IMG/VR virus record: IMGVR_UViG_3300038759_000120
Span: 1-46,653 of that record
DNA: 46,653 bases
Reading direction: 5' to 3' (one strand)
Origin: a virus
Shown: positions 1,360 to 44,365 of the stretch, in pieces
Layout of the letters: each line of letters begins with the position of its first letter
How positions within the stretch are numbered: position 1 is the first letter of the stretch
The notes under the pieces: generated by a model
Seen by the model: only the letters and a program-made list of their open reading frames with translations
The model's database searches: none
What the model was told of the DNA's origin: nothing
Made by a program: the position numbers and the translations under genes

Positions 1360-3560
1360 CTAAATATCTTTCATTGTGTGCGTGTGAGAAAACCTATCCG
1401 GGTGATATGGATAACTGTCCGCATTGTGGCGAGCCTGAATGGGCGTCAAGCCACGCACCGATTAACCCACGCGATTATGCTTACGATTTAGAAACGTACC
1501 CTAACACGTTTACCGCCCGCTTTATCCACATGGCGACCGATACGCGCTGGAAGTTTGAAATCTCGTACCGACGTAACGACCTAGCCGAGCTTATCGCATT
1601 TGTGTGGCAGCTTAAAGCGTGTAACGCTCGCGGCGTTGGTTACAATAACGTTGGGTTCGATTACCCTGTGTTACATCGTATCGTTATGCAACAGATGAAC
1701 GACCCTCGCGCTATTTACGATTTAGCGATGAAACTAATCAAAGGTTCGAAAGACGAGAAATTCGCGTTACAGGTTTGGGATCGTGACAGACTCTTCGAAC
1801 AGTTAGATTTAATTATGGTGTGGCATTACAACAAAGAAAACCCAGTCACAGGAACAGAACCAACAAGTCTTAAAGCGCTTGAAATTGCGATGCGTATGGA
1901 TGACGTCGAAGACTTACCGTTTGACGTCGGTACGGTCTTAACAGACGAACAAATTGACGAACTCCACAGGTACAACGAACACGACGTGATCGCTACGATA
2001 TTCTTCTATGTGCGGTCATTGACACAAATTAAACTACGTGAGGAGCTATCGACCACGTTCGGCAAGAATTTTTTAAACCATTCAAATACTAAAATGGGTG
2101 GTGATATTCTTATACACGAATGTGAAAAAGCGGGTATCGAGTTTTTCGACCGCGTAGGCAATAAGCGTGTTAAGCGCCAAACGATACGCCCATCTATTAA
2201 TCTCGGTGAATGTATATTCCCTTACGTGCGTTTCGAGCGTCCAGAGTTTGAAGCTGTACGCGCGTTACTTGCGAGTAAAACAATCACCGAAACGAAAGGT
2301 GTGTTTAAAGGGCTTAACGCTGAAGTCGACGGCTTGAAGTATTATTTCGGGACTGGTGGTATCCATGCGAGCGTTGAGTCTCGTATATTCGAATCGAATG
2401 AAACGCATCAAATAATAGATGTCGATGTCGCTAGCTTTTATCCGAACTTAGCAATTAAAAACCGCCTACACGCTGAGCATTTAGGTGTGGAGTTTTGTAA
2501 CGCTTATGAAGGTGTTTATCATACTCGTAAATCGTACCCTAAAGGTTCACCAGAAGACGCAGCATACAAAGAGGCACTTAACGCCAACTACGGGAATAGT
2601 AACAACGCGTATAGTGTGTTTCTCGATCCTAAATTCACAATGTCGATTACGCTTAACGGTCAATTATTATTGTGTATGCTCGTTGAGCAGATGATAAAAA
2701 TACCAAACCTTGAAATGATTCAGGCCAACACGGACGGTATTACCTACTATTGCCCGCGAGAACACATCGAACACACTCGCGCATTGTGTAAATGGTGGGA
2801 GCAGTTAACGTGCTTAGAGCTTGAAGAGGCTCAATATTCACGTATGTTTATTCGTGACGTTAATTCATACATCGCTGAGTACGAAGGGGGCGGATTAAAA
2901 CGTATCGGCGCTTACGCTCATGAACGTATGGACGAAAACCCAGGTACGCGAGAAGTACCCTACGGTAAAGACCCAAGCGGACTAGTCATACCTAAAGCAG
3001 CCGAAGCGGCACTGGTACATGGTACGGATATTCGCACGTTTATCGAAAACCACGCAGACGATTACGACTTTATGTGTCGTGCAAAAGCGCCACGCTCGAA
3101 CCGTCTTGTAATGCGTTGGCCTGAATACGATAACGCCGAGATAGACTTGGCGAATATCGTACGTTATTACGTATCGAATAGCGGTGGTTCGCTCGTTAAG
3201 ATTGCACCACCTACGGGTGAGTTAGGCACGTGGAAACGCGCCGCGAAAGTATCGGACGCAACATACGCGGCGGTACTTGCTGAGAACAGAGACAACATGC
3301 GTCAACACGGTTACGACGTTAATAACTTCGGACCAGCCGATCACTCTTTACACTCGACTGACCTGAACGGTGATAAATGGGATGAACGTATACACACTAA
3401 AAACCGTAGCAAGCACGGTATACGTGAAATGGGCGTGTGTGTTGGCTGGCGAGTAACGGACTGTTCGAACGTTAAGAATTTCGACCGCTCGACAGTTAAT
3501 TACGATTACTACGTGCAAGAAGCTGAAAAACTAGTTAAACCACTCAGAGGGGATGAATAA
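1356..3560 (+). CDS. Family B DNA polymerase with 3'-5' exonuclease domain
   Basis: Replicative polymerase, 734 aa. Exonuclease motifs are YDLETYPN (D44, E46), NNVGFDYP (D102) and YNEHD (Y206, D210). Polymerase motif A is DVASFYP (D357), motif B is KEALNANYG (K405 to YG 412-413), and motif C is NTDG (D460, in place of the usual DTD). The N-terminus has a putative zinc knuckle (C8, C10, C21, C24). About 270 residues follow motif C. Phages with the DUF2800/DUF2815/SNF2-type helicase/VRR-NUC module more often encode a family A polymerase, so the B type stands out. It probably works with the primase-helicase at 36571-38961. An ORF in another frame at 2485-2694 is a shadow. Confidence 0.88.
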   Translation: MTKYLSLCACEKTYPGDMDNCPHCGEPEWASSHAPINPRDYAYDLETYPNTFTARFIHMATDTRWKFEISYRRNDLAELIAFVWQLKACNARGVGYNNVGFDYPVLHRIVMQQMNDPRAIYDLAMKLIKGSKDEKFALQVWDRDRLFEQLDLIMVWHYNKENPVTGTEPTSLKALEIAMRMDDVEDLPFDVGTVLTDEQIDELHRYNEHDVIATIFFYVRSLTQIKLREELSTTFGKNFLNHSNTKMGGDILIHECEKAGIEFFDRVGNKRVKRQTIRPSINLGECIFPYVRFERPEFEAVRALLASKTITETKGVFKGLNAEVDGLKYYFGTGGIHASVESRIFESNETHQIIDVDVASFYPNLAIKNRLHAEHLGVEFCNAYEGVYHTRKSYPKGSPEDAAYKEALNANYGNSNNAYSVFLDPKFTMSITLNGQLLLCMLVEQMIKIPNLEMIQANTDGITYYCPREHIEHTRALCKWWEQLTCLELEEAQYSRMFIRDVNSYIAEYEGGGLKRIGAYAHERMDENPGTREVPYGKDPSGLVIPKAAEAALVHGTDIRTFIENHADDYDFMCRAKAPRSNRLVMRWPEYDNAEIDLANIVRYYVSNSGGSLVKIAPPTGELGTWKRAAKVSDATYAAVLAENRDNMRQHGYDVNNFGPADHSLHSTDLNGDKWDERIHTKNRSKHGIREMGVCVGWRVTDCSNVKNFDRSTVNYDYYVQEAEKLVKPLRGDE

Positions 3561-3561
3561 A

Positions 3562-3759
3562 ATGGCGACGATTACGAAAGGTTTTAAAGTTATACTCAAC
3601 ATGGCAGACGGTGAAAGTATAACAGTGTTAACAGATTACGAACCGTCACTCGAAGATAGTGTTATAAAATTCAGACTTGAAGATGACGACAAGGGTATGT
3701 TATATCGTCAAGTACGTATGGGTTCGTTCCACTCAATGAAAGTGTATATCATCTGTTGA
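3562..3759 (+). CDS. Hypothetical protein, 65 aa
   Basis: Unrecognised. An ATG at 3553 exists but AGAGGGG abuts it; the ATG at 3562 has proper spacing and gives a natural N-terminus (MATITKGFKVILNMADGES), so I chose it. It starts just after the polymerase stop. The TGA stop (3757-3759) is built into the -35 box and operator of the next promoter. The product is probably a small beta-rich protein. Confidence 0.6.
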   Translation: MATITKGFKVILNMADGESITVLTDYEPSLEDSVIKFRLEDDDKGMLYRQVRMGSFHSMKVYIIC

Positions 3760-3784
3760 CATACCCGTCACTATAGACGATACT
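3756..3784 (+). promoter_or_regulatory. Promoter with TGAC-N6-GTCA operator on the -35
   Basis: TTGACA (3756-3761), 17-bp spacer, GATACT (3779-3784). The palindrome TGACATACCCGTCA (3757-3770) covers the -35 box. It drives the gene pair at 3834-4264. The leader carries a hairpin also found downstream of the 36568-36596 promoter. Confidence 0.75.
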
Positions 3785-3791
3785 ATCAAAA

Positions 3792-3812
3792 AGCGTCACA
3801 TTCCGTGGCGCT
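3792..3812 (+). promoter_or_regulatory. Leader hairpin shared with the 36.5-kb promoter
   Basis: AGCGTCAC and GTGGCGCT pair (one G-U) around ATTCC, just downstream of the predicted transcription start. Almost the same sequence sits on the minus strand at 36541-36561 after a second operator-bearing promoter. Confidence 0.5.
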
Positions 3813-3833
3813 AATTACACGAGGTTATATGGT

Positions 3834-4121
3834 ATGAAATCACAAGGTAAATATACTACGAGTAGAATGTTACAAACTGCTAAAATAGCTAGTACCGTTG
3901 ACGGTATTGAGATAAGCGGTAATGCTTTTAAGGTTATCGAGTTACAAACTTGTCCCGATATGTTATTACATGCAGTAGAGCGAATAGAAGTGCTTGAAGA
4001 AGCGGTCAAAAAAGCGCACGAAATACTATTACACGAAATGGATAACGGACGAACGCCGAGCATGTTACAAGGCGTTGGACTTGGTTACTTTGAAGATATT
4101 ATATGTGGGGTGAAATCATGA
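3834..4121 (+). CDS. Hypothetical protein, 95 aa
   Basis: Unrecognised. ATG 3834 follows an ACGAGG ribosome-binding site. The middle (LLHAVERIEVLEEAVKKAHEILLHEM) is a likely coiled coil; the C-terminus is GVGLGYFEDIICG. First gene behind the 3756 promoter, overlapping the next small gene by four bases. Confidence 0.65.
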   Translation: MKSQGKYTTSRMLQTAKIASTVDGIEISGNAFKVIELQTCPDMLLHAVERIEVLEEAVKKAHEILLHEMDNGRTPSMLQGVGLGYFEDIICGVKS

Positions 4122-4264
4122 TTAATATTATCTTAAACACTTTTGTAGCTTTAATTGGTATCGCTATATTCGCACCTGACAGTGATATCCTTACGACAAT
4201 ATTTGTAGGTACTGTTAGTATTGCGGCTGTAAGGTTTTTCATCTACGTGATGCGGGGTGTGTAA
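4118..4264 (+). CDS. Small two-helix membrane protein, 48 aa
   Basis: ATG 4118 overlaps the stop of the preceding gene (ATGA). The 48-aa product has two hydrophobic stretches (residues 3-19 and 25-45), a short polar turn (APDSDI) and a positively charged C-terminus (VMRGV). Co-transcribed with 3834-4121. Function unknown; it converges with the minus-strand membrane genes 21 bases away. Confidence 0.6.
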   Translation: MINIILNTFVALIGIAIFAPDSDILTTIFVGTVSIAAVRFFIYVMRGV

Positions 4265-5118: not shown

Positions 5119-5160
5119 TTGACACGTTGCGCGAGTACGTATATAGTGACGTTACAGTCA
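5119..5160 (+). promoter_or_regulatory. Promoter with operator after the -10
   Basis: TTGACA (5119-5124), 17-bp spacer, TATAGT (5142-5147). The operator TGACGTTACAGTCA (5147-5160) overlaps the predicted start site. The promoter is closely related to that at 30779: both share TTGACACGTTGCGC and the block from TATAGTGACG to CAGTCAATTAAA. Confidence 0.8.
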
Positions 5161-7494: not shown

Positions 7495-8133
7495 TTATGC
7501 TCCAAAGTACTGACCGAATGTGGCCCGTGTGTCACCGAATCCAAACGACCCGCCAAACTGTGTAATTGCTGTTTCTTCAGTATAACCCAAAAACCCTACG
7601 CCTTGCGGTCGCGGTAATATATCAAACGTATTGAACACAAAACGCTCTATCTCACTAAGTTCTGAACCGAATGACACACTGAATGTCATGTCCTCGTTGT
7701 CTATTACGCTGATTGGGTTAATGTTCGTTATATAACTTAACGCTTTTACAACACCGTCAAGTGTTGCGTCTGAGTTATTTTTAGCTATTTTAGCTTTGAT
7801 TAATACTCTGTATATCTCGTTACTAACCTCATCGGTTATCGTAGCGCCGACAGTTTCAAACTGTGAGTCGTTACCGCCAAACTGTGCGGTGAGTGTATCT
7901 GCGCCGAAATACGTGTCAGGTTCAAACGTAACACTAGACTCGTAACTTCTATCAATGACCACGATGCGACCGATGACATCTAGTTCTGCGGTGTTAGCCG
8001 TGTCGATATTATACGACGTCCTGACCTGTTCGTAAGCGTCAGCTATTTGGCCCGCAAGCGACGGTACGATGTTGTACCACGCGACTGCTTTCGGTTTATC
8101 ACGATACTGTGCATATATACGGGTATTAATCAT
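7495..8133 (-). CDS. Baseplate protein, DUF2612 family
   Basis: 212 aa. The N-terminal pattern (ITRIYAQYRDKPKAVAWYNIVPSLAGQIADAYEQVRTSYNIDTA...ELDVIGRIVVIDR, paraphrased) and C-terminal FGG-containing repeats (AQFGGNDS, TQFGGSFGFGD) fit DUF2612 baseplate proteins that lie between gpJ and the tail fibre in small myophages. It overlaps gpJ by eight bases and ends six bases before the fibre gene. It probably joins the wedge to the fibre. Confidence 0.75.
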   Translation of the reverse strand: MINTRIYAQYRDKPKAVAWYNIVPSLAGQIADAYEQVRTSYNIDTANTAELDVIGRIVVIDRSYESSVTFEPDTYFGADTLTAQFGGNDSQFETVGATITDEVSNEIYRVLIKAKIAKNNSDATLDGVVKALSYITNINPISVIDNEDMTFSVSFGSELSEIERFVFNTFDILPRPQGVGFLGYTEETAITQFGGSFGFGDTRATFGQYFGA

Positions 8134-9331
8134 TTATAATCACCGTTATGTTCGACAAGTCCCAGCGTGACAACTCGTTAAGCGCGATGGGTACTTGACC
8201 AGACGTTAGGGTGTTCACTGTTAATGCTGTGATATACGAGTTGCCGAACACACCTATAATTTGATTAACCGGTGTGTACATACGTGACACTGGTACTTCC
8301 TCACCAATGTCAAAACCTAACACGTTAAATCCACACTCTGCAGCTACTAATTCACCCGACGAGTAATCGATAATAGCTTGCTTAACTCGCTCGTCAGTAT
8401 CGTTAGGTAATGTACCGTCGTTTTGTATCGTAACACTTACGATCATATCCACGTAGTTAGGTCGGCTGAACGTGATGTCGCGAGAGTTACTCGGGTAAAT
8501 GTCGAATACGTCAGGGACTGTTACGCTTGTACCAGCCGCGTGTAATTTACATCCGGGGTTTTTCTTACGAAATATCGCCTTTGCAATATCTTCGTTCGTA
8601 CCACCGTCAACAATCGGCGCAACACTATGTTCTGGTAGTCCGTTAGCATCAGTCACACCTGTATCGTTTTCCAGTACGATAGCGCGTCGAACACCTTCAA
8701 CCGCGAATATCTCGCCGAGCATGTTATCAACCTGAGCATTACCAGGGCGTGATACAGCTTTAGCGCGTTCAAGACGCAACGACGAATCGTTCTGTCTATT
8801 CGTACCGAGCGTAGCGACCGTTGGGTTAGTGACTTTTTGCCACCCACCCACAGTGTCTACAATACGTGTAATTGTTCCGATGCTCGCAACCGTTGCACCG
8901 TTGGTCGTACACGTTGCGGTCGCTGCGACTGTACCACCTACACCGATTGTTACGTTCGAGTCAATCGACCATTGCGAACCATCGACCACAGACTCGACGA
9001 GTTTACCAGATAAAATTACTGTACCCGCGACACCAGTTAAGGTTAACTCCACATTGCTTGGTGTGCCTTGACTACGTATCGTACCTGTGAGTGAACATAT
9101 GACGTTTAGGTCAACGTCTTTCGCTTTGTTCGGATCTTTAGAGTTATACGCACGTTGACCAAGCTCGTCGAGGTTTGCGAATATCTCAGCGTCAGACGCG
9201 AGTTTTAGGCCGTCGGGAGTCGATGGGTCTAAGTTCCAATTCGGATCGATATCCAAATATAGCTGGCGCTCTTCAGCAAACCATGTGTTTTGATTTTTTA
9301 TAACGTAACCGTTAAAAGTTATTTCAGCCAT
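8126..9331 (-). CDS. Baseplate J-like wedge protein
   Basis: 401 aa, homologous to phage P2 gpJ / Mu gp47 / T4 gp6-type wedge proteins. Typical features are the N-terminal DPNWNLDPSTPDGLKLASDAEIFANLDELGQRAYNSK-like helix (about residues 28-66), the GTPSNVELTLTGVAGTVI beta domain, and VGGWQKVTNPTVATLGTNRQNDSSLR before the C-terminal half. It overlaps both neighbours by a few bases, so translation is coupled. It forms the ring around the hub in the baseplate. Confidence 0.88.
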   Translation of the reverse strand: MAEITFNGYVIKNQNTWFAEERQLYLDIDPNWNLDPSTPDGLKLASDAEIFANLDELGQRAYNSKDPNKAKDVDLNVICSLTGTIRSQGTPSNVELTLTGVAGTVILSGKLVESVVDGSQWSIDSNVTIGVGGTVAATATCTTNGATVASIGTITRIVDTVGGWQKVTNPTVATLGTNRQNDSSLRLERAKAVSRPGNAQVDNMLGEIFAVEGVRRAIVLENDTGVTDANGLPEHSVAPIVDGGTNEDIAKAIFRKKNPGCKLHAAGTSVTVPDVFDIYPSNSRDITFSRPNYVDMIVSVTIQNDGTLPNDTDERVKQAIIDYSSGELVAAECGFNVLGFDIGEEVPVSRMYTPVNQIIGVFGNSYITALTVNTLTSGQVPIALNELSRWDLSNITVIIND

Positions 9332-10498: not shown

Positions 10499-10527
10499 TT
10501 GACAGGTTCGTCACTAGCGAGTAAAGT
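10499..10527 (+). promoter_or_regulatory. Promoter with operator on the -35 (small RNA promoter)
   Basis: TTGACA (10499-10504), 17-bp spacer, TAAAGT (10522-10527). Operator TGACAGGTTCGTCA at 10500-10513. No convincing coding sequence follows before the terminator at 10766-10791. Confidence 0.75.
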
Positions 10528-18020: not shown

Positions 18021-18049
18021 TTGACGTATCCGTCACTAAGCGCTACACT
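18021..18049 (+). promoter_or_regulatory. Promoter with operator on the -35
   Basis: TTGACG (18021-18026), 17-bp spacer, TACACT (18044-18049). Operator TGACGTATCCGTCA at 18022-18035. Drives the 18082-19669 island. Confidence 0.78.
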
Positions 18050-18081
18050 TCCCGTACAGTAAAATTGTGGAGATACAACGA

Positions 18082-18414
18082 ATGACAACGGAACAACGAA
18101 GAGCGATAAACGAGAATCCGAATTTACAATCGGGCGTGCTATCAAGGTTGTTAGGTATACCAAGTAACACTATAAAAACGTTCCGACGACGTAATAATTT
18201 ACGTGGTAAGTGGACGTACTCGGGGACAGGTATACCATTTTTAAGATTCGACGGGTTATACCGTATAATGTATAACCACAGATACGTGATAGCATGTAAC
18301 GATTTTAAAAAGGCGATTGATGTGTTAGATCATTTAATCTGGTCGATCGAAACGGGTGTAATGTCTGATAACACACGCATAGAACACCCATATTTTGAAG
18401 GTTTGAAGCTATGA
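18082..18414 (+). CDS. Helix-turn-helix protein, 110 aa
   Basis: ATG 18082 sits nine bases after GGAG; the in-frame GTG at 18067 overlaps that site and is unlikely. Residues 14-42 (NLQSGVLSRLLGIPSNTIKTFRRRNNLRG) look like a helix-turn-helix. The rest is unassigned. It is the first gene of the island and overlaps the zinc-finger gene by four bases. Probably a phage DNA-binding regulator. Confidence 0.65.
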   Translation: MTTEQRRAINENPNLQSGVLSRLLGIPSNTIKTFRRRNNLRGKWTYSGTGIPFLRFDGLYRIMYNHRYVIACNDFKKAIDVLDHLIWSIETGVMSDNTRIEHPYFEGLKL

Positions 18415-18686
18415 GTAGATATAATTTAGCAGGTGATTCGACGATGATACATTGTAAAGTCACCGACAATAAAATGACGAAGAAAGAGTGTCAAAAACTT
18501 GACATACCTGTCTATTACTACGTGTGTAAACACGGTCACAAGTTACGTTACGTGTCAAACGATAAGTGTGTCGATTGTTCAGTAGCTCAAAACCGTAAAC
18601 ATACTGGTGATGCGAAACGCGTCGCAATTAAAAAGCGTCTCGACGAGATCGAAGCACGTCGAGAGCTTGACAAAATACTATGTTAA
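18411..18686 (+). CDS. Small zinc-finger protein, 91 aa
   Basis: Cysteines are arranged as C15, C26, then VCKHGHKLRYVSNDKCVDC (C-x-H-x-H ... C-x2-C), followed by a basic helical tail. The CKHGH...YVS...C-x2-C unit recurs at the C-terminus of the 33920 protein. Possible nucleic-acid-binding protein. An internal ATG at 18444 is an alternative start. Confidence 0.6.
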   Translation: MSRYNLAGDSTMIHCKVTDNKMTKKECQKLDIPVYYYVCKHGHKLRYVSNDKCVDCSVAQNRKHTGDAKRVAIKKRLDEIEARRELDKILC

Positions 18687-26456: not shown

Positions 26457-26492
26457 ATTTTTATTGTATGCCCTATAGTGACGATTCAGTCA
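26451..26492 (+). promoter_or_regulatory. Promoter with operator after the -10
   Basis: TTGCAA (26451-26456), 17-bp spacer, TATAGT (26474-26479). Operator TGACGATTCAGTCA at 26479-26492. Drives 26516-27779. Confidence 0.75.
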
Positions 26493-26515: not shown

Positions 26516-27226
26516 ATGAGTATGAACAGTCTAGAATTTATTAAACAACACGTTACGGAATGGCCTAGTGGTGAATACCACACTGTACTGTTATATAGTA
26601 ATGGGTTTGCGGTATTCGCCAATAGTTTCAAACCAGGAATGGGTGTCCACTCAATAGACCTGACCGAACATTTCGCACCGAGTTACTACGACGGCAAAGT
26701 CTGGACACGCGAAGAGTTTGAAGCGTGTGGGGTTGTTGAGTATCGTTACAATGATGGGTGCGCTAACCCACTGTTAAAACGTGAGGGTGGTAAATATTTC
26801 TATAATTCCGAGGGTGATTGGTGTGAATATAACATTCTACCTGCGTCACATTGGGAACACGCTGTTAAAATCAGTGATAGTATGGTGGTTAATCATCTTA
26901 AAAAACCTTTCTCAAAACGTAAAGATGGGTCGTTCGATGCGACTGAAATTGAGATGGTTAATGGTATCGACGCTACAGTCGAAGAGCGTGGAAATCGTTA
27001 TGGTGCATTTAAAGACGGTGCGGATATTATGCAAGAGCTTAAAAGCGTGATGCGCTCGACACCAAACTGGTCACAACTAACACCGTCACAACGCGAAGCG
27101 CTTGAAATGATACAGCACAAAGTGGGACGCATTTTAAACGGTGATCCAAATTACACAGATTCGTGGCATGATATTAAAGGTTACGCACATCTAATCGAAG
27201 AGGAGTTAAACGGAAATGCAAAGTAA
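26516..27226 (+). CDS. Phage protein with C-terminal DUF6378 domain
   Basis: 236 aa. The C-terminal 80 residues ([21 protein letters not shown]...[44 protein letters not shown], in parts) match the DUF6378 phage domain, an all-helical domain with MazG-like appearance. The N-terminal ~145 residues ([17 protein letters not shown]...) are beta-rich and often occur alone in phages. First gene of the DfrB-like operon, overlapping the next gene by 11 bases. A role in nucleotide metabolism is inferred from the neighbours. Confidence 0.72.
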
Positions 27227-28734: not shown

Positions 28735-28763
28735 TTGACCGCACCGTCACTAGTTGTTAATAT
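28735..28763 (+). promoter_or_regulatory. Promoter with operator on the -35
   Basis: TTGACC (28735-28740), 17-bp spacer, TAATAT (28758-28763). Operator TGACCGCACCGTCA at 28736-28749. Confidence 0.78.
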
Positions 28764-28771
28764 TACCTTAT

Positions 28772-28826
28772 CGAAACGAAACGAAACGAAACGAAACGAA
28801 ACGAAACGAAACGAAACGAAACGAAA
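28772..28826 (+). repeat. (CGAAA)11 microsatellite in a 5' leader
   Basis: Eleven uninterrupted CGAAA units between the -10 box and the ribosome-binding site (AGGTGA) of the 28844 gene. The transcribed leader would be almost wholly this repeat. Confidence 0.97.
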
Positions 28827-28843
28827 CAACTAACAGGTGATTT

Positions 28844-29026
28844 ATGCAACGAGTAATAACTACTTTCAAACAAGTGACACTTGATCATAACGGTGTGTCA
28901 TACGTAAGGGTTGATAAGTTCAAGGGTGGTGTTTATTCTAACGTCGATCACTACGGATGTAACTGTACTTCGTTCCACTCTGAGCAAGAAGTTAAACTAT
29001 GGATCGATGAGGTGTTCGGGGAATGA
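28844..29026 (+). CDS. Hypothetical protein, 60 aa
   Basis: Unrecognised. Well-placed AGGTGA before ATG 28844. Beta-strand-like start (ITTFKQVTLDHNGVSYVRVDKFKGG) and a CNC motif (GCNCTSFHSEQEVKLWIDEVFGE in part). First of three overlapping small genes behind the repeat-bearing leader. Confidence 0.65.
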   Translation: MQRVITTFKQVTLDHNGVSYVRVDKFKGGVYSNVDHYGCNCTSFHSEQEVKLWIDEVFGE

Positions 29027-30778: not shown

Positions 30779-30821
30779 TTGACACGTTGCGCTACCATCG
30801 GCTATAGTGACGCTACAGTCA
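30779..30821 (+). promoter_or_regulatory. Promoter with operator after the -10
   Basis: TTGACA (30779-30784), 18-bp spacer, TATAGT (30803-30808). Operator TGACGCTACAGTCA at 30808-30821. Near-duplicate of the promoter at 5119. Confidence 0.8.
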
Positions 30822-30843: not shown

Positions 30844-31125
30844 ATGAAACGAGACTACACGACCCGCGACGAGCTAACCATGCGTGAAATGGTTGTGGAG
30901 GGTCGTTCAATCGCAGAGGTGGCAAAACGACTCAACCGCACATACGCAGCGACCGCACAACGCTTATCGACGTTGGGCATCGCTACACGTGCACAGCGTT
31001 ACACACGTGAACAGTGTGAGCGGATCTTAACGTGTGCTGACAACCAACTGTTAGCGCGTGAGATGAGCCGCACACCTGATATGATAATTATGAAACGATA
31101 CAAACTTAAAAAGGCGATGAGATGA
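30844..31125 (+). CDS. Helix-turn-helix (Myb/SANT-like) protein, 93 aa
   Basis: TRDELTMREMVVEGRSIAEVAKRLNRTYAATAQRLSTLGI (residues 7-46 in part) fits a Myb/SANT-like or GcrA-type helix-turn-helix; a second, weaker one may follow (REQCERILTCADNQLLAREMSRTPDMI). Sole clear gene of its island, so it may be a phage transcription factor, a rival to the TetR-like protein for reading the shared operators. Confidence 0.7.
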   Translation: MKRDYTTRDELTMREMVVEGRSIAEVAKRLNRTYAATAQRLSTLGIATRAQRYTREQCERILTCADNQLLAREMSRTPDMIIMKRYKLKKAMR

Positions 31126-33878: not shown

Positions 33879-33919
33879 CAACGCTTAATTTCAAGTAATT
33901 ATATTAGGAGTATGACAAC

Positions 33920-34681
33920 GTGCCAATCTATTATTTTCCAGACGGTAGAGCTTCGGAACACCCGACGAGCTACGAACTAGCGTGTGAACTTAAAACGAAG
34001 CGCTACGACGAGGGCGTGAAGTGTAATAAATGCAACGCTCGTTTCACTAGTAGGTATACAAAAAACCAAGAATGTGCAGGTTGTGCACAGTTAAAAGCAG
34101 GTGATTTTTACAATTTATGCAAGCGCCACATGAAGATGTTTTGTAGTAATCCTGAAGGTGGATGGATGAGTAAAGTATCGGCGGGAGTGCTTCGACCTAT
34201 AGACGAAGACGTGTGGGATGAGATGATCGACCTTGCGTACTTATATCAACAAAACGAGCATACAGGGGAGTTCACAGTTTCAGAAGACGCGTGTAAAACT
34301 CACGGGCATTACGGGCTTAAACGACACGGTAAGTGTTATCAGTGTCAGTTGATGCGCACCAAACTAACACCGCGACAAAAAGCTATACAGGACGGTAAGA
34401 CGTGGTACATGCCCGCTACCGACTGCCCTAAGTGTGGTGAGAGAGCACTTAAGAATATACATAATGGTTCGTGTCAAGGTTGTAACCCACCTCGCGACAA
34501 CCGTACCACAGCGACTAGTATTATAATGGCTAATAATCCCGACATGGTGATAAGCCGAGAAGATGCTCACGAGCTTGAGATGATCGTATACCGTACGGGT
34601 GAAGAATGTAAGCATGGTCATACAGGCTGGCACTATGTATCAACAGGTAATTGTATCGATTGCCGTAAGGATAGTAGATAA
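33920..34681 (+). CDS. Multi-zinc-ribbon protein, 253 aa
   Basis: Starts at GTG 33920, nine bases after AGGAG. At least four metal-binding units are visible: CNKCNARFTSRYTKNQECAGC, CKTHGHYGLKRHGKCYQCQ, CPKCGERALKNIHNGSCQGC and CKHGHTGWHYVSTGNCIDC (each C/H-x2-C ... C-x2-C; first and third shown at ~20 residues). The last resembles the 18411 protein. Possibly DNA- or RNA-binding. It is alone behind its promoter. Confidence 0.7.
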   Translation: MPIYYFPDGRASEHPTSYELACELKTKRYDEGVKCNKCNARFTSRYTKNQECAGCAQLKAGDFYNLCKRHMKMFCSNPEGGWMSKVSAGVLRPIDEDVWDEMIDLAYLYQQNEHTGEFTVSEDACKTHGHYGLKRHGKCYQCQLMRTKLTPRQKAIQDGKTWYMPATDCPKCGERALKNIHNGSCQGCNPPRDNRTTATSIIMANNPDMVISREDAHELEMIVYRTGEECKHGHTGWHYVSTGNCIDCRKDSR

Positions 34682-36567: not shown

Positions 36568-36596
36568 ACTTTAGCTGTTAGTGACGGCGGTGTCAA
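36568..36596 (-). promoter_or_regulatory. Promoter with operator on the -35
   Basis: Minus strand TTGACA (36596-36591), 17-bp spacer, TAAAGT (36573-36568). Operator (minus strand TGACACCGCCGTCA) at 36595-36582. The promoter lies inside the last codons of the primase-helicase gene and drives the lysis-type cluster. Confidence 0.75.
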
Positions 36597-38961
36597 CTGT
36601 TTGCGCTAATAAATCGCCTTGCGCCGCTGCGTAACATCGCGCAACCTCCGCACCACTCGTTAAGTTACCGTGGATATGACCCGCACGGATATATAAACGC
36701 GGCTTACCACCTTCACACGGTATAACGTTATTAGCGCGTCCACCGTCTTTAAGTGCTGGGTGATAGTCGTAACCAAGAGAGCGTAACAGTTCGCGATGTT
36801 TGCCCGGTGGTAACATATTGTCTTTACGAATATCTTTAAGTAACTTACTGAATGCAAAGCTGCTTATCCATCCACCAGCAAAACCTGGACGGTCTTCACC
36901 AATCGCTTCGAGCACTTCTTGTTCGATGCGACCCATACCAATCGAAGCGGCCTCGGCTGTGCTTGACGTGTCTGGCGCTGTTTGACAACTCATCGTAGGG
37001 TTAAACTCGTTAGGTATCGCATACTCGTTAAGAAAGTGTGCAACCTTAGCGTAACCGTTATGATTATCCAACCAATCGTAAAGATTCGAGAAGTAATCGC
37101 CGGTCATACCGTCACGTATCAGGTCTATTTTTTCTTGTTGTGCTGAATAAAATACACAGTAGCGGCGGTCTTTCGTAGCGTCTTTGATACCGTCTTTATG
37201 GTTCGAGTTAAACATAAAGTTACAACAAATGTTGTGCATCGCTTGGTCGGTATTCATCGCACGTTTAGCTAAGCGCTTATTTGTGATCATAGGCTTAAGC
37301 GTTTCAATCATTTCAAGCTTATTGCTCGGCACGTAAATATCCTCAACGCCGATAAATAACGTATTAAACAACCACGCGTTAAACTTCTCAGAGATTTCCA
37401 ACGCTGGTGGCATGTGTGTATAACGCTCACCGATAGCATACGCCACGCAACGAGTGAATAGCGTCTTACCGTTACCCACCACACCTTGCAATAGTGGTGC
37501 CCATTGGATTTTATACCCTTTATACTGGACACACGCCGCCATGTAAGATAACAGTATCGTTTGGTCACGTTCATCTGGTAACACTTTACGCAAGTGAGTC
37601 ATAAACGGGGCGATGTCACCTGATACAGTGTGAATATCGATAGGTACGTACGTATTAACGTAGCGCCACCCGTCAACCTCAACGATAGCGCCAGGCGCTA
37701 CATCAGGTCGAAACGTCATTGAATCGGCTTTAGGGAAATGCATTATTTGAGACTCGGTGAACGCTTCCCATGCTTTTTTGGTCGTCTTCTCACCGTCTTC
37801 ACCCGCTGCGAAATTGTAACCACCGTACATCGCATTAAACTGTTCAGGTTTAAGTAACGCACCGTTAGCACAAAAGATACGGTTAACCTCGGCTATATAT
37901 ACACAACCTTTAAACAGTTCAACTTGCTTGTCGGCAGCTAATAACTGATAACCGTCACGCATGACAGGCTCAAGTACGGTAGTAACTTCGGTGACCTCAG
38001 TTGTGGATAGACCCACAGCGTAAAAACTACCTTGACGCGCTACAGCGTTTGTAATGGTGCGTTGCATGTACGACTTATGATAATCCCATTTGTCACGCAC
38101 AAGCGCAGACTTACGCATCAACGACTCTATACGCTCACAGTTGCCACCCGTCCAGAACGCCAAGTGTTGAGCAAGCGCAGCGTCAGCGCTCGAACGGTCA
38201 TACTCACCATCAAGCGTGTCGTGCGGGTAGCCACGTGATAACACAGGTGCGTTACCCGTCCACAAGTCTTTGAACGATACTTTAGTCGGTTCAGCACCGA
38301 ACATTACCGCGACTTCTTTAGGTTTCGACGCGAGTGCTTTCTCGATCAGATCCGCGTCGTCTTTAGGTGGGTTGGAGTCCTCAACGTGAGTCGTTGACCA
38401 TTCACCCGTAATGCGCTCTGGGTCTTTACCAGCGAAATACTGTGTAACAACCGACGATAATCCGTCAGTCACGTGCGAAGCGTCACCGCTCACACCGTTA
38501 CCGGTCAACGCGATGAAACGCTCCGAGGTGTAAAGCTCGATACCTAGCGCGATGTTCTTACACTTATGTTCAGGTTCAGCGCCAGCATACGACCCGATAA
38601 TATGTAAACCTGTACCACTATGTGAAATCTCAACAGCCGCACCAGTTAACTCCGTACATAACTGCGTAGTGAGTGGCGACCACTGACCGTCGTAAGCGCC
38701 GTCAATATCTACACAGTAAAAAGGGTCGTTCGATGTGAATACAAACCCTACACCGTAATTATCGCCAAGTAACTGAGCGCTACTGATAGCGGTGTCAGGG
38801 TCTAACCATACGTTAGGGTTGTGCGCGTCCGTCACGTTACCGGTAATATCACAAGGGAACTTGTCGAATTTACCAGGTCGTGACTTGCTCGCCACGGCTT
38901 TCCACAATACGAATTGTGCGTAGGCCCGTAACGCATTAAATGATTGTGGGAGTTGTTGCAT
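36571..38961 (-). CDS. Primase-helicase (prim-pol-like plus SF3/DUF5906 helicase)
   Basis: 796 aa. The N-terminal third resembles archaeo-eukaryotic-type primase (prim-pol) domains: VDID (84-87), then ISHSGTGLHIIG and KNIALGIELYTSERFIALTG. A middle region carries a cysteine (GGNCERIESLMRKS) as in DUF3987/VapE-like proteins. The C-terminal helicase has Walker A GVVGNGKT (493-500) and Walker B LFIGVED (535-541), followed by FMFNSNHKDGI. Together these prime and unwind DNA for the family B polymerase. Downstream of the TetR-like gene and probably under its promoter. Confidence 0.85.
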   Translation of the reverse strand: MQQLPQSFNALRAYAQFVLWKAVASKSRPGKFDKFPCDITGNVTDAHNPNVWLDPDTAISSAQLLGDNYGVGFVFTSNDPFYCVDIDGAYDGQWSPLTTQLCTELTGAAVEISHSGTGLHIIGSYAGAEPEHKCKNIALGIELYTSERFIALTGNGVSGDASHVTDGLSSVVTQYFAGKDPERITGEWSTTHVEDSNPPKDDADLIEKALASKPKEVAVMFGAEPTKVSFKDLWTGNAPVLSRGYPHDTLDGEYDRSSADAALAQHLAFWTGGNCERIESLMRKSALVRDKWDYHKSYMQRTITNAVARQGSFYAVGLSTTEVTEVTTVLEPVMRDGYQLLAADKQVELFKGCVYIAEVNRIFCANGALLKPEQFNAMYGGYNFAAGEDGEKTTKKAWEAFTESQIMHFPKADSMTFRPDVAPGAIVEVDGWRYVNTYVPIDIHTVSGDIAPFMTHLRKVLPDERDQTILLSYMAACVQYKGYKIQWAPLLQGVVGNGKTLFTRCVAYAIGERYTHMPPALEISEKFNAWLFNTLFIGVEDIYVPSNKLEMIETLKPMITNKRLAKRAMNTDQAMHNICCNFMFNSNHKDGIKDATKDRRYCVFYSAQQEKIDLIRDGMTGDYFSNLYDWLDNHNGYAKVAHFLNEYAIPNEFNPTMSCQTAPDTSSTAEAASIGMGRIEQEVLEAIGEDRPGFAGGWISSFAFSKLLKDIRKDNMLPPGKHRELLRSLGYDYHPALKDGGRANNVIPCEGGKPRLYIRAGHIHGNLTSGAEVARCYAAAQGDLLAQTVDTAVTNS

Positions 38962-38962
38962 A

Positions 38963-39259
38963 CTACGACACTCCCAGCGCGCGACACGCTATATATTGTC
39001 CCTCGTCTTGCCTAACTTCAGGCAGTTTAGCGATTTCAGTCAGAGCATTTTCAAGCTCCTCTACACGTCGCTCAGCATCCACAAGTTTTTGACAAGGTGT
39101 TAAACCGTCTACTTTCTGCATTGTAACAACGAACGATTTTGAAGGGTCGTCGTTACAACCGAAAGTTTGTTCAATGTAGTTAACAGCACCCGAACCCTCG
39201 AAGAAATCGAGAAGCTTATCGGCCATAGCGTGTATTACGTTTTCGTGTTCATTACTCAT
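38963..39259 (-). CDS. Hypothetical protein, 98 aa
   Basis: ATG 39259 nine bases after GGGAG, inside the end of the TetR-like gene. A coiled coil (CQKLVDAERRVEELENALTEIAKLPE) and the ending YIACRALGVS, a pattern seen in many small phage proteins. Function unknown; sits one base before the primase-helicase gene. Confidence 0.65.
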   Translation of the reverse strand: MSNEHENVIHAMADKLLDFFEGSGAVNYIEQTFGCNDDPSKSFVVTMQKVDGLTPCQKLVDAERRVEELENALTEIAKLPEVRQDEGQYIACRALGVS

Positions 39260-39590
39260 CGTCTTCGCTCCCACCGTTGCTGATCAACCAATCCATTGCT
39301 TGACGCTTTAACGTGTCATCAGCACCGTGAGCGATACGACAACCCGACGCGATACCGTGAGCGATGATAGGTAACTCGGCGCGGTGTATCGCTGCGCGCA
39401 TAACGGCACGGTGTAACTGATTCATAGTGTTAAACACTTTACTCACTAAACCTGTGGAAATACCACCTTGCTCGGCGATACGTTCACGTGTTACAGCGTC
39501 GTAACCCTGTTTAATAGCTATATCCATCGCAACACCTAAGATGTGCTCGCGACGTGCTTCTGGTTTCATTCTTGTTCTACGGTCTGACAT
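39252..39590 (-). CDS. Short TetR-family transcriptional regulator
   Basis: 112 aa. Residues 13-58 (REHILGVAMDIAIKQGYDAVTRERIAEQGGISTGLVSKVF in part, then the YxH-like FNTMNQLHRAVMRAAI) are a standard TetR helix-turn-helix. The usual ligand-binding domain is missing; only about 50 residues follow. AGAGAG precedes the ATG. Its promoter contains two perfect TGAC-N6-GTCA operators, so autoregulation is likely, and the same operator stands at most other non-structural promoters. Probably the global regulator of early phage genes. Confidence 0.8.
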   Translation of the reverse strand: MSDRRTRMKPEARREHILGVAMDIAIKQGYDAVTRERIAEQGGISTGLVSKVFNTMNQLHRAVMRAAIHRAELPIIAHGIASGCRIAHGADDTLKRQAMDWLISNGGSEDDE

Positions 39591-39611
39591 GTTATTCTCT
39601 CTTTAAATTAA

Positions 39612-39653
39612 TGACTAGATGGTCAATATAAGCGCGCGTGACGGGCTTGTCAA
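39612..39653 (-). promoter_or_regulatory. TetR-like gene promoter with two operators
   Basis: Minus strand TTGACA (39653-39648), 17-bp spacer, TATATT (39630-39625). Operators at 39652-39639 (on the -35) and 39625-39612 (at the start site), both perfect TGAC-N6-GTCA. Confidence 0.85.
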
Positions 39654-39823: not shown

Positions 39824-40296
39824 AGTGACCCCACATCATTACAAAAACACGCGTCGCCGCCAAGCGACACGACGAACTCAAGGCAACGCAACTGTGCAAT
39901 TTCGTGTTCAGTGGCAGTATACTTCCAGTTAGCTCGTTTAACCTCACGCATTACGAATTGACCTATAGTACAACCGACCATTTCTTGTGTGATTAACACA
40001 GGACGTATACCGATAAGATCACCAGACTTAATATGTTCGTTCATCTTTTTAGAGTCGTTCATCCAACCGTAACGTATTTGTCTACCGTTTTTATCTTCAC
40101 AAGCACCAACCTGATTACGGTAGAGCCTAACACCAACGTGACTAGCCTCAAGACGTACAGCGTTCAACACAGCCGCTTCGCTCGCACCGGTCATAGAGTG
40201 CGGTACGTCCGTCGACTGTGTGAATAACTGTTGCAACTCTTCGAGTGCTTCGGGCGTTACGCCGTGACGCTTCGCCCATTCGTTAAGGTGTATCAT
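39820..40296 (-). CDS. VRR-NUC domain nuclease
   Basis: 158 aa PD-(D/E)XK nuclease of the VRR-NUC type. Active-site pattern: E40 in GASEAAVL, D93 in SGDLIG, E118-x-K120 in MREVKR, then a helix with an Arg/Leu-rich pattern (AQLRCLEFVVSLGGDACF). Such proteins go with phage helicases in recombination or Holliday-junction processing. It overlaps the PAPS-like gene by four bases. Confidence 0.82.
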   Translation of the reverse strand: MIHLNEWAKRHGVTPEALEELQQLFTQSTDVPHSMTGASEAAVLNAVRLEASHVGVRLYRNQVGACEDKNGRQIRYGWMNDSKKMNEHIKSGDLIGIRPVLITQEMVGCTIGQFVMREVKRANWKYTATEHEIAQLRCLEFVVSLGGDACFCNDVGSL

Positions 40297-41306
40297 GATA
40301 AATCTCCAAAAGCTTCACATGACTCTGAACACGAGTTGGTTTCAACCATGTGACCACCACGTATACGCGCTTTAATCTCTTCGCCTGTTGAACCGTCAAA
40401 AGTAGCTATCACCTGCCCTATGGAACGTTTTTTTCTATAACCTCGATGATTATCGTGAGTGTCCCTGACTGTAGCGTTATTTACAAGTTGTAACCAGTCT
40501 TGGTACATTTCCGGTTCGTCCTTCGCTGCAGCTGCGAGTTTTAGGTCTGATTTTTTGAAGCAGTATACACAATTACCGCACCACTCAGGTATCTCTAGGT
40601 CGAAAGGCATTTTAGACCAATGTTCCATTACGTCAGATTTATCCATGTCTGTTATTTCAGCCATGTAATGAATGTTGCGGTCTATAGTTACTTTGTAATA
40701 CCTTTGAATCATTAACCTGGCTAGATAAACATTACCTTCTACCAACTTTGAAACATTCTCAACAGTGATTAAGGTGTCACCCATCTGACGCCACTTATCT
40801 ATAATATCTATATCATCCATACCCATGTTTTTCATTATCTTAACTATGGAATGTTTACTTTTTTTAGGGTTTCCCCATATCCTCAGAGGTTCATCCGAAC
40901 GCATACCTAACCATGTTTCGTAGTTATGCTCCCCGTAAGTATCGTTACAATATTTATCGTGCACGTCCTCTTTCATTCGAGACGTACACCAACCGTTGCC
41001 GATACCAGGCATCCCGTACTTTTTAACAAGTTCACCGTACACTTTTAAATCGTATTTCAAATCTTCCACGGGTATTATCTTATATGTGTGGCCTTCACCT
41101 AGAGGCTGATTAAAATCACCTTGTAAACAAGTCAAGTTGAGGTCGAAATAAAGATCGCAAAACTTGATGAACTCGTATGTCTTAGGGTGCTCAGCACCCG
41201 TATCCATGTAAATAAAATCTAAGTTATCCCTTCCGAATTTAGAAATCATCTCTACGGCCATACATATACTTGTACGACCTCCACTGACATTTACGGTTTT
41301 TTTCAT
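40293..41306 (-). CDS. PAPS-reductase-like / N-type ATP-pyrophosphatase protein
   Basis: 337 aa from ATG 41306 (MKKTVNVSGGRTSICMA), eight bases after GGGAG. PP-loop SGGRTS (8-13), then FIYMDTGAEHPKTYEF and GNGWCTSRMK, as in the PAPS reductase/sulfurylase fold. A Cys pair WCGNCVYCF near residue 258 and a C-terminal cysteine cluster (NSCSESCEAF) suggest a metal or Fe-S site. Phage members lie beside replication genes; their substrate is not established. DNA here has fewer CG dinucleotides than the genes on both sides. Confidence 0.75.
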   Translation of the reverse strand: MKKTVNVSGGRTSICMAVEMISKFGRDNLDFIYMDTGAEHPKTYEFIKFCDLYFDLNLTCLQGDFNQPLGEGHTYKIIPVEDLKYDLKVYGELVKKYGMPGIGNGWCTSRMKEDVHDKYCNDTYGEHNYETWLGMRSDEPLRIWGNPKKSKHSIVKIMKNMGMDDIDIIDKWRQMGDTLITVENVSKLVEGNVYLARLMIQRYYKVTIDRNIHYMAEITDMDKSDVMEHWSKMPFDLEIPEWCGNCVYCFKKSDLKLAAAAKDEPEMYQDWLQLVNNATVRDTHDNHRGYRKKRSIGQVIATFDGSTGEEIKARIRGGHMVETNSCSESCEAFGDLS

Positions 41307-41339
41307 CGTAACTCCCGTTAAACTGACCAAAACGTCACT

Positions 41340-43067
41340 TTACGTGCCCAAATTACCAATGTCAAGCGCGACACGTTCACTTAACGCTAGCGACTCACTC
41401 GACCCGAGCGCCTGGGCGCTTAACCAATCCACACCGTAACGCAGATAAAAACGTCTAAATATCTCACTGTCTGAACGACCCGCTGCACGATGATGACCCG
41501 CCCACATCGCTAAGATTTCGCGCAGTGCTTCAAGCGCTTGTTGTTGTGCTTCAAGCTTCGCAGCGAACCGACGAGAGTGTGCAGCGATGTGTAACGGTTT
41601 GGTATGTTTCGCTGCTAGTTCCATTCGATACTGTGCAATTGCGTCTTGTAGTGGCATATCCACACGTGCGACATCGCCGCGCATCTGTGCGAGTGTATTA
41701 GCGTCAAGCTCCGTTAAATCACCGTCGACGAGTTCAGGCTCTTTACGGTCGGTAGGTGCTGGTTTAGGTATCGGTGTGTCGCAAAACGGGCAGACTGTAA
41801 GGTATTTCTCATAGACGTTGTAACACTCTTCGTTCATACACGTACGTAACTGTGTAGCGTCATCACCACCAGCCCCACGCTTCTCACGCCTATCAAGTGT
41901 CCATTCGCGTTTGGCGTCTGGTAGCCCGTGACGCATTACGTTACCCGCGTGGTCAATAACCAACGCGTGTTTTTTACCATCGAGCAACCGTAAGGCGCGG
42001 CCGAATTGTTGGATATATAGAGAATAACTAGCAGTAGGTCTAGCCATACTAACTACTTCAATCGCTGGTACGTCAACGCCTTCCCCGAGCAAATCCACAT
42101 TTACAAGCTGTAATATCTCACGGTTGCGAAACTTACGCATCACATCACCGCGTTGTTCATCGGGTGTTTTAGCGCTCAACACTTCGGCACGTACACCGGC
42201 TTCGTTGAACTGTCGCGCTACTTCAGTAGCTTGCTCTACACTCGGTACGAACGTTACACCCAATTTACCGTTAGCTATACGTTTATAATGTGAAACTATG
42301 TCGCCGACAATACGTGACTTACCATCCGAAGCGATTAACGACGACTTACCAACCGCGTCACGCATTTGATTAACGTTATAATCCCCCGTGGTCTTACTGA
42401 CGGATACGTGCGATAAATCAATGTCACTAGGTGGTGAGAATATACGGTACTCTGTTAAGAACCCTTCACGTATTAGGTCTCGCATATTAGGACCTACGAC
42501 CATAGTATCAAATAGACCGTCGTGATGAGTACCTAAACCCTTACCGTCAGCACGAACAGGTGTGGCCGTTGGTCCTAGTAACTTACAATTATTAAATAGT
42601 TGTACAGCGGTTCCCCACTTGTTCTCTTTAAGCACGTGGTGAGCTTCATCAATTACACAAAGTGTGACTGTAGGTAAATAACGTTTAAGTTCATCTGTTC
42701 TACGCACCAAAGTGTCTACACCGGCTACGGATGCTTTAGAGCTTGGGTCGTAAAAACTACGTTTAAATTCTTTCATGTGCATACGTACAATAGTACGTAT
42801 TAATTTATCAGGGCCAATTATACGATGTTCAACACCGTTACGGGCAAACGCCATTGACAACTGTGACACTAGCTCCTGGCGATGTGCAATGGTACAACTC
42901 GCACCATCGTGATCGCGTACAATTGCTGAAAGTATACGAGACTTACCACCACCGGTAGGAAGTACCATGCACACACCATGATTACCAGCGCCCCACGCTT
43001 CATGTACGTGATCGTAAAGCCCTAACTGATAAGGTCTTAGTCCTTTATCCGAGCATATTTTTTTCAT
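41340..43067 (-). CDS. Superfamily 2 DEAH helicase (RadD-like)
   Basis: 575 aa. Motif I PTGGGKS (37-43), motif II DEAH (140-143), motif III GPTATPVR, motif VI QQFGRALR. A zinc finger follows (CMNEECYNVYEKYLTVCPFC), then a helical C-terminus. This order matches RadD-type repair helicases and their phage relatives. It probably acts with VRR-NUC, DUF2800 and the polymerase in recombination-dependent replication. The start overlaps the HNH gene. Confidence 0.87.
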   Translation of the reverse strand: MKKICSDKGLRPYQLGLYDHVHEAWGAGNHGVCMVLPTGGGKSRILSAIVRDHDGASCTIAHRQELVSQLSMAFARNGVEHRIIGPDKLIRTIVRMHMKEFKRSFYDPSSKASVAGVDTLVRRTDELKRYLPTVTLCVIDEAHHVLKENKWGTAVQLFNNCKLLGPTATPVRADGKGLGTHHDGLFDTMVVGPNMRDLIREGFLTEYRIFSPPSDIDLSHVSVSKTTGDYNVNQMRDAVGKSSLIASDGKSRIVGDIVSHYKRIANGKLGVTFVPSVEQATEVARQFNEAGVRAEVLSAKTPDEQRGDVMRKFRNREILQLVNVDLLGEGVDVPAIEVVSMARPTASYSLYIQQFGRALRLLDGKKHALVIDHAGNVMRHGLPDAKREWTLDRREKRGAGGDDATQLRTCMNEECYNVYEKYLTVCPFCDTPIPKPAPTDRKEPELVDGDLTELDANTLAQMRGDVARVDMPLQDAIAQYRMELAAKHTKPLHIAAHSRRFAAKLEAQQQALEALREILAMWAGHHRAAGRSDSEIFRRFYLRYGVDWLSAQALGSSESLALSERVALDIGNLGT

Positions 43068-43684
43068 TGTCTACCCTCAACAGCTTCAACAACTGACCAA
43101 CCGTAATTATTTAATCGACCTTTCATCGTGTAAAAATTAATACCAGCCAGTTCGGCAAGTTCTCTAATAGTGTATTCTTTACCGTTATATTCGTACTTGC
43201 GTATCTTACGAGTGTTTAACGCTTGTTTCTCGTTAGCTAACCACACACAATTTAAAGGTGAATAACCTAAGTTCACATCGGCGCGCTCAATCGTTAAACC
43301 TTCACAGTATCCGTTTTCTAAAGCCCAACTGTGAAAATGATTATAATTATCCCACAACGAACAAACTTTAATACCTCGACCGCCGTAATTAGGATAATCT
43401 TTATTTCTAGGGTTGTTACAACGTTGACGCATCGCGACCCACACGTAGTAAAGCTTCTTAATTGTTGCTGACTTACCATGTGTTTTCAGATGGTGATCAC
43501 AACCACAACTACTTTTAGACCCGTGACGTTTTTTAGACGCGAAGGTTATACAACGCTCAACAGTATTACCACAATCACAAGTAAACTCCCAAATCCACAA
43601 ACCTTTTTCATTTGGTCGAAGTGGTTTAGTTGCTGTCAATTTACCGTATTTGTTACCCGTAATGTCTTTACGCTTATTAGCCAT
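43064..43684 (-). CDS. HNH-type (AP2-like) homing endonuclease
   Basis: 206 aa. N-terminal Cys pairs (CDCGNTV...SSCGCDHH), then the phage HNH/AP2 signature YYVWVAMRQRCNNPRNKDYPNYGGRGIKVC...LTIERADVNLGYSPLNCVW (in parts), and a C-terminal helix-turn-helix-like segment (TIRELAELAGINFYTMKGRL). Free-standing mobile endonuclease. First gene of the helicase operon under a strong promoter. Confidence 0.8.
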   Translation of the reverse strand: MANKRKDITGNKYGKLTATKPLRPNEKGLWIWEFTCDCGNTVERCITFASKKRHGSKSSCGCDHHLKTHGKSATIKKLYYVWVAMRQRCNNPRNKDYPNYGGRGIKVCSLWDNYNHFHSWALENGYCEGLTIERADVNLGYSPLNCVWLANEKQALNTRKIRKYEYNGKEYTIRELAELAGINFYTMKGRLNNYGWSVVEAVEGRQ

Positions 43685-43718: not shown

Positions 43719-43746
43719 ATTATATACACTAGACTTAACCTGTCAA
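43719..43746 (-). promoter_or_regulatory. Strong sigma70 promoter of the helicase operon
   Basis: Minus strand TTGACA (43746-43741), 16-bp spacer, TATAAT (43724-43719). It has no perfect TGAC-N6-GTCA, only TGAC followed by AGTC six bases on, so it may be constitutive. Confidence 0.8.
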
Positions 43747-44321: not shown

Positions 44322-44365
44322 TTGACTGAGTGGTAACTATACGTTTATAGTGACCGTGTTGTCAA
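44322..44365. promoter_or_regulatory. Overlapping divergent promoters sharing one operator
   Basis: Plus: TTGACT (44322-44327), 18-bp spacer, TATAGT (44346-44351). Minus: TTGACA (44365-44360), 18-bp spacer, TATAGT (44341-44336). Operator TGACCGTGTTGTCA (44351-44364) covers the plus start site and the minus -35. A one-mismatch copy (TGAC-TGAGTG-GTAA, 44323-44336) mirrors it on the plus -35. Confidence 0.82.

Follow-up and report, generated by a model that had tools for sequence, protein, structure and literature searches.

Within the 46,653-base viral record IMGVR_UViG_3300038759_000120, the whole of which is referred to here as the window, a small gene of the TetR type lies in one operon with a primase-helicase, which raises the question of what such a regulator controls in this phage. 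The record represents a dwarf-myovirus-like phage with structural genes on one strand and a polymerase/helicase/primase module. It starts with three perfect copies of the 18-bp repeat GCAGCAACGCAAGCACCT (positions 1-55), and Rfam and tRNA scans of the whole window gave no matches. The locus comprises the following features:

39625-39653, minus strand: tetR promoter, TTGACA (39653-39648), 17 bp, TATATT (39630-39625)
39639-39652, minus strand: predicted tetR operator B, perfect TGACAAGCCCGTCA, on the -35
39612-39625, minus strand: predicted tetR operator A, perfect TGACCATCTAGTCA, beginning with the final -10 base and spanning the expected start site
39252-39590, minus strand: tetR, 112 aa, ATG start, predicted TetR-family repressor
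38963-39259, minus strand: unassigned ORF, 98 aa, ATG at 39259, overlapping the end of tetR
36571-38961, minus strand: primase-helicase with NrS-1-type HBD and DUF5906, downstream in the tetR operon

The tetR protein

The 112-aa protein matched TetR_N (PF00440) with an E of 1.3e-6, above the gathering score, and PHROG 8723 with an E of 7e-30, and PF00440 was also matched by 16 of 17 orthologs. Sequence profiles aligned with TetR structures, mostly over about residues 8-70. The AlphaFold model of the monomer (pLDDT 87.8, pTM 0.77) comprises helices at residues 10-28, 35-42, 46-52, 56-70, 73-82 and 92-109, with the predicted recognition helix at about residues 46-52. Among solved structures, the model resembled DNA-bound EilR (5vl9, Z 10.9) and KstR (5ua2, Z 10.6) as well as LuxR and SmcR, LuxR likewise reaching a Z of about 10-11; such values are middling for a helical protein, for which the TetR profile match is an independent support. 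Family, PHROG and fold matches thus agree with the sequence-only reading, an earlier interpretation of this DNA made without database searches, which had assigned a TetR DNA-binding domain to the protein and the primase-helicase to its operon; the latter is reflected by the overlap of tetR with the 98-aa ORF and the primase-helicase following it.

The same reading stated that almost no ligand domain is left, which holds true only in part. The classical C-terminal ligand-binding/dimerisation domain of about 120 residues is absent, the protein stopping at residue 112, but about 45 residues extend beyond the helix-turn-helix domain, mostly as confidently modelled helices with conserved positions. 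These short helices may serve dimerisation. Since the classical domain is missing, the claim of ligand control is limited, and membership in the TetR family is claimed for the DNA-binding domain only.

Sites in the window and their promoter registers

The perfect motif TGAC-N6-GTCA was found 13 times in the window, compared to a mean of 0.98 and a maximum of 6 in 100 shuffles. When all 4-mer and 5-mer dyads with spacings of 0-24 were compared without bias, it was the most enriched (P 4e-10) and led by five orders of magnitude. Twelve of the 13 sites lie at a sigma-70-like promoter in one of two registers: in register A the site starts at the last T of the -10, while in register B the -35 is supplied by the site's TTGAC, with the -10 at 17 bp. 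Because both registers are fixed, the two kinds of site lie 27-28 bp apart where a promoter carries both. Besides the two sites at tetR, the following were determined:

3757-3770, plus strand: operator B, upstream of 3834-4121
5147-5160, plus strand: operator A, promoter TTGACA-17-TATAGT at 5119-5147, without clear downstream gene
9100-9113, unstranded: perfect motif without promoter, inside tail gene 8126-9331
10500-10513, plus strand: operator B, promoter TTGACA-17-TAAAGT, without clear downstream gene
18022-18035, plus strand: operator B, upstream of 18067-18414 (or ATG 18082) and 18411-18686
26479-26492, plus strand: operator A, upstream of 26516-27226
28736-28749, plus strand: operator B, upstream of a (CGAAA)11 leader and 28844-29026
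30808-30821, plus strand: operator A, upstream of small HTH-like gene 30844-31125
36582-36595, minus strand: operator B, promoter 36596-36568, upstream of small ORFs 36523 to 35981
41324-41337, minus strand: operator A, promoter 41365-41337, upstream of a PAPS-reductase-like gene (ATG at 41306)
44323-44336, unstranded: one-mismatch operator TGACTGAGTGGTAA, B site of P44322(+) and A site of P44365(-)
44351-44364, unstranded: divergent replication-promoter operator, A site of P44322(+) and B site of P44365(-)

The site at 9100 is probably a chance match. The predicted sites are built into about 11 non-virion promoters of the phage, that of tetR included. As the sequence-only reading had noted, the tetR promoter is the only one in the window with two perfect sites, which are spaced 27 bp. 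The face-to-face divergent promoters 44322(+)/44365(-) are laid out likewise, from a perfect site (44351) and a one-mismatch site (44323), both sites serving both directions.

Some further observations concern individual operator promoters. Those at 5119-5160 (+) and 10499-10527 (+) are strong, and their sites recur with identical sequence in the uncultured relative G001. What they transcribe could be tiny genes, or else small RNAs in antisense to late genes. Directly downstream of P28735, a perfect (CGAAA)11 tandem repeat (28772-28827) lies in the leader of 28844-29026.

Motif and registers in related phages

Small TetR homologs were present in 71 phage records, and the window-like ones diverge to about 30% identity in phages of Vibrio, Klebsiella, Edwardsiella and Acinetobacter. 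Perfect sites amounted to 9 in CP-T1, 14 in KpV52, 13 in PEi21 and 5 in Scuro, and to 8 to 18 in each of the uncultured relatives G001-G005, G007 and G008, compared to 0-1 per genome for a reversed control pattern. SppYZU01 showed only two operator-type promoters. The registers were analysed in 13 genomes, comprising phages of these four hosts and uncultured relatives, with 136 perfect sites, 119 of which could be classed to a promoter. Counted over both strands, hexamers resembling a -10 occurred 77 times at an offset of +22 from the site start and 48 times at -5, the background at random positions being 5.2 per offset. A -10 at 17 bp was found for 73 of 166 TTGAC followed by N6-GTCA, compared to 46 of 1982 TTGAC without it (P 4e-57, the sites not all being independent).

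The tetR promoter itself carries doubled sites 27-28 bp apart in eight genomes, perfect in the window, G001, G002 and G008 and with one mismatch per site in G003, G004, G005 and G006, while KpV52, PEi21, CP-T1 and G007 showed a single -35 site. Between the window and G001/G002 the promoter and its operators are near-identical, whereas upstream of the -35 the sequences are unrelated. A general rule that tetR operators are weaker than target operators was rejected; it applies to G003, G004, G005, G007 and CP-T1 but is false in the window, G001, G002, G008, KpV52 and PEi21.

Two phages use variants of the motif. phiPLPE showed TTGACG-N4-CGGCA at promoters and at the tetR start site, and G006 (L027, IMGVR_UViG_3300020045_002457) showed TTGAC-N6-GCCA at seven promoters together with a changed TetR recognition helix. 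In G006 the altered half-site is the one not tied to the -35, as would be expected if a protein reads that half. The shift together with N46 is suggestive of a link to the recognition helix. The simple rule that residue 46 sets the third half-site base was discarded: phiPLPE combines D46 with GGCA, but other phages with D46 use GTCA.

In the phages with more distant TetR proteins (PD0307, 367.14, AeroV_348, CKB-S1, PY6 and Psp6) the motif did not rise above background, and therefore the scheme is not claimed for them. The Pseudoalteromonas phage PY6 (L011) carries another dyad, GTAGCG-N6-CGCTAC, between -35 and -10 at 8038, 7131, 19985 and 28181 (5 genome-wide, 0.01 expected), which is perhaps the operator of its own TetR homolog. 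The 'putative integrase' of PY6 (1781-4126) equals in size the primase found in its relatives, and its annotation may be wrong.

Co-occurrence of gene and motif

An alignment search with the distant TetR set yielded no usable conserved stretch; in its place, single-protein searches and then a primase alignment were used. The latter gave 80 viral and 24 bacterial-genome loci, and counts were made on loci of at least 8 kb. The 73 loci with tetR comprised 279 sites, compared to 26.8 expected and 23.0 at other spacings, although fewer than two sites were found in 17 of them. The 21 loci without tetR comprised 12 sites compared to 5.1 expected; these stem mostly from bacterial genomes and are phylogenetically separated, and two of them (L070 and L100) end where tetR would lie. 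Site enrichment differed between the two groups with a Mann-Whitney P of 2e-7, a value which overstates independence because the loci are related. The control phages 56, phi1422 and VpaJT_1, which lack tetR, showed 2, 0 and 2 sites, which equals background. The sequence-only reading had named occurrence of the motif in relatives without the gene as a refuting condition, and the outcome spoke for its proposal. Judged from these genome comparisons, dozens of related phages have the same predicted pairing of protein and sites.

Genes behind the operator promoters

In KpV52, PEi21 and CP-T1, a first gene could be assigned to 28 operator promoters; for 27 of them it has no virion annotation, the 28th being an ambiguous case in CP-T1. 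The targets comprise the operons of the single-strand-binding protein, of the helicase and of tetR-primase, and small reverse-strand ORFs. Five of the nine annotated KpV52 promoters coincide with operators, while three of the four operator-free ones are located in the structural region and have its orientation. A corresponding sequence was found in the window:

33898-33926, minus strand: promoter-like TTGGCA-17-TATAAT without operator, leading into the terminase/structural operon; a consensus match only

Since many genes of the regulon are unannotated in function, the label 'early' used for them is inferred.

Two genes of the window deserve separate mention. The PAPS-reductase-like gene under an operator promoter (40293-41306, minus strand) also gave a match to SspD in the PADLOC library (E 9e-15), and a connection with DNA phosphorothioation-type chemistry or with counter-defence is conceivable. 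Inside the replication operon lies an HNH (homing-type) endonuclease gene (43064-43684, minus strand), whose own promoter at 43746 is operator-free and near-consensus (TTGACA-16-TATAAT).

Proposed mechanism and alternative explanations

The tetR gene and the sites, the exact registers of these with promoters, their conservation and the co-occurrence are all read directly from the DNA, while binding, dimerisation, repression and a role in early-to-late timing are inferred. It is considered likely that the protein is an autoregulated TetR-family repressor which shuts off early promoters of the host sigma-70 type via TGAC-N6-GTCA. At phage entry no repressor would be present and the near-consensus early promoters would fire. 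The TetR protein, made together with the primase from one early promoter, would then accumulate, and its dimer would bind TGAC-N6-GTCA and occupy the -35 (B) and/or the start region (A), so that promoters read by the host RNA polymerase with sigma-70 are repressed. In this way, the promoters of replication and accessory genes would be shut off, the doubled operators would let the protein limit its own synthesis, and the virion genes, whose promoters have no operators, would stay on. Repression is indicated by the position of the sites on the -35 and the start site, and early shut-off is favoured because tetR is co-transcribed with the primase and predicted to be autoregulated, and the virion promoters are spared. 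The many operator promoters, the doubled tetR promoter in relatives and the enrichment that tracks tetR are in line with the master regulator under tight autorepression that the sequence-only reading had suspected; of the two roles it offered, early shut-off is the better supported and a carrier-like state less so.

The sites might instead belong to a host regulator or to the promoter architecture itself, the TetR protein not being the binder. Since the consensus -35 is TTGAC, promoter function alone explains half of a B site, but neither the second half-site with its fixed spacing nor the A sites are elements of a promoter. The motif moreover spans phages of Vibrio, Klebsiella, Edwardsiella and Acinetobacter, does not exceed background in phages that lack tetR and flanks the promoter of tetR itself, and this explanation is considered highly improbable. 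Still less credence is given to activation of the operator promoters by the TetR protein, a thought arising from TetR-type regulators such as LuxR, which can do both. Activation of some promoters by LuxR-type proteins is described in PMC2628434, and the tetR model resembles the LuxR and SmcR structures; however, sites overlapping the -35 or the start site are in repressor positions, and the operator promoters already comprise near-consensus hexamers with 17-bp spacing.

More weight is due to the view that the protein acts as an immunity repressor in a temperate or carrier state without integration, in which the replication genes would be silent and derepression would lead to lytic growth. The operators cover the replication operons at both divergent promoters, and CP-T1, which has the tetR/operator system, is reported as temperate, with none of the three known lysogeny routes represented among its genes (PMC3391216). 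In CP-T1 and G003-G006 the tetR operators are one mismatch off, which might let the repressor rise. Nevertheless, no integrated prophage with this tetR was found among the 24 primase relatives in bacterial genomes: the five with tetR (L130, L131, L132, L135 and L138) are all MAG contigs of at most 48.7 kb, and the relatives on long contigs (e.g. L133, L134 and L140) lack the gene. On plasmids no relative was found, the matches being full TetR proteins of unrelated kind and remote primases, phages 138 and phiPLPE are listed as lytic (PMC3391216), the structural promoter has no operator, and no integration or partition genes were seen among about 30 window proteins scanned, which covered the small ORFs only partly. 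The lack of an integrated prophage with this tetR among these primase relatives favours lytic timing over integrative lysogeny, and altogether the immunity repressor is regarded as unlikely. Since CP-T1 is reported to be temperate, timing may nonetheless not be the whole role. That the protein is the missing repressor of the CP-T1 type, holding lysogeny or a carrier state free of integrase and partition genes with all replication promoters occupied, is assumed to be slightly less likely still. As a separate observation, L134 (Vibrio hannami, 644-kb contig) and L133 (Marinobacter halodurans) encode primases of 44-45% identity on long contigs without tetR or motif, and it is possible that they are prophages of a related, differently regulated lineage.

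Relation to known systems and significance

With TetR, KstR, EilR and LuxR the protein shares the TetR_N helix-turn-helix, palindromic operators over promoters and autoregulation (predicted here), but it is phage-encoded, comprises 112 aa instead of about 200 and has no ligand domain, and many operators are spread over one small genome. Lambda Cro/CI and P22 Arc are autoregulated repressors which occlude early promoters, a mode of action also predicted for the window protein; these known repressors work in a compact switch region, whereas the window protein has another fold and one site type at many separate promoters. The repressor of mycobacteriophage L5 has many genome-scattered sites (stoperators), which are asymmetric and in many cases lie within transcription units. 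One phage repressor, as predicted here, with many scattered sites resembles this arrangement, whereas the window sites are dyads locked in register with promoters.

TetR-like regulators were noted by Comeau et al. 2012 (PMC3391216) in phiPLPE, CP-T1 and 138, in which the genes were suggested to be co-opted osmotic-stress genes. The text of that paper gives no operators, the words promoter and operator being absent, and left the temperate CP-T1 unexplained. These proteins are small homologs from the same phage group as that of the window, and CP-T1 with its TGAC half-sites and phiPLPE with its variant carry promoter-embedded operators like those found here. The tetR genes of this group and the phage repressor regulon as a kind are already known, while in the papers searched (mostly non-subscription) the operators, the regulon and the promoter-embedded architecture of these TetR proteins are not described, nor was a description of gene control in this small-myovirus group found.

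The analysis provides a testable regulatory scheme for small myoviruses including CP-T1, 138, phiPLPE, Jedunavirus, Yokohamavirus and many uncultured relatives, and suggests how these phages turn early genes off. It bears on the behaviour of CP-T1, for which the TetR protein is a candidate explanation. Since Jedunaviruses infect clinical Klebsiella, the ability of the repressor to silence an infection matters for the choice of lytic phages. Furthermore, a very small repressor with operators that double as the -35 would be a compact model of repressor-promoter co-evolution, and small phage TetR proteins are a possible source of minimal repressors.
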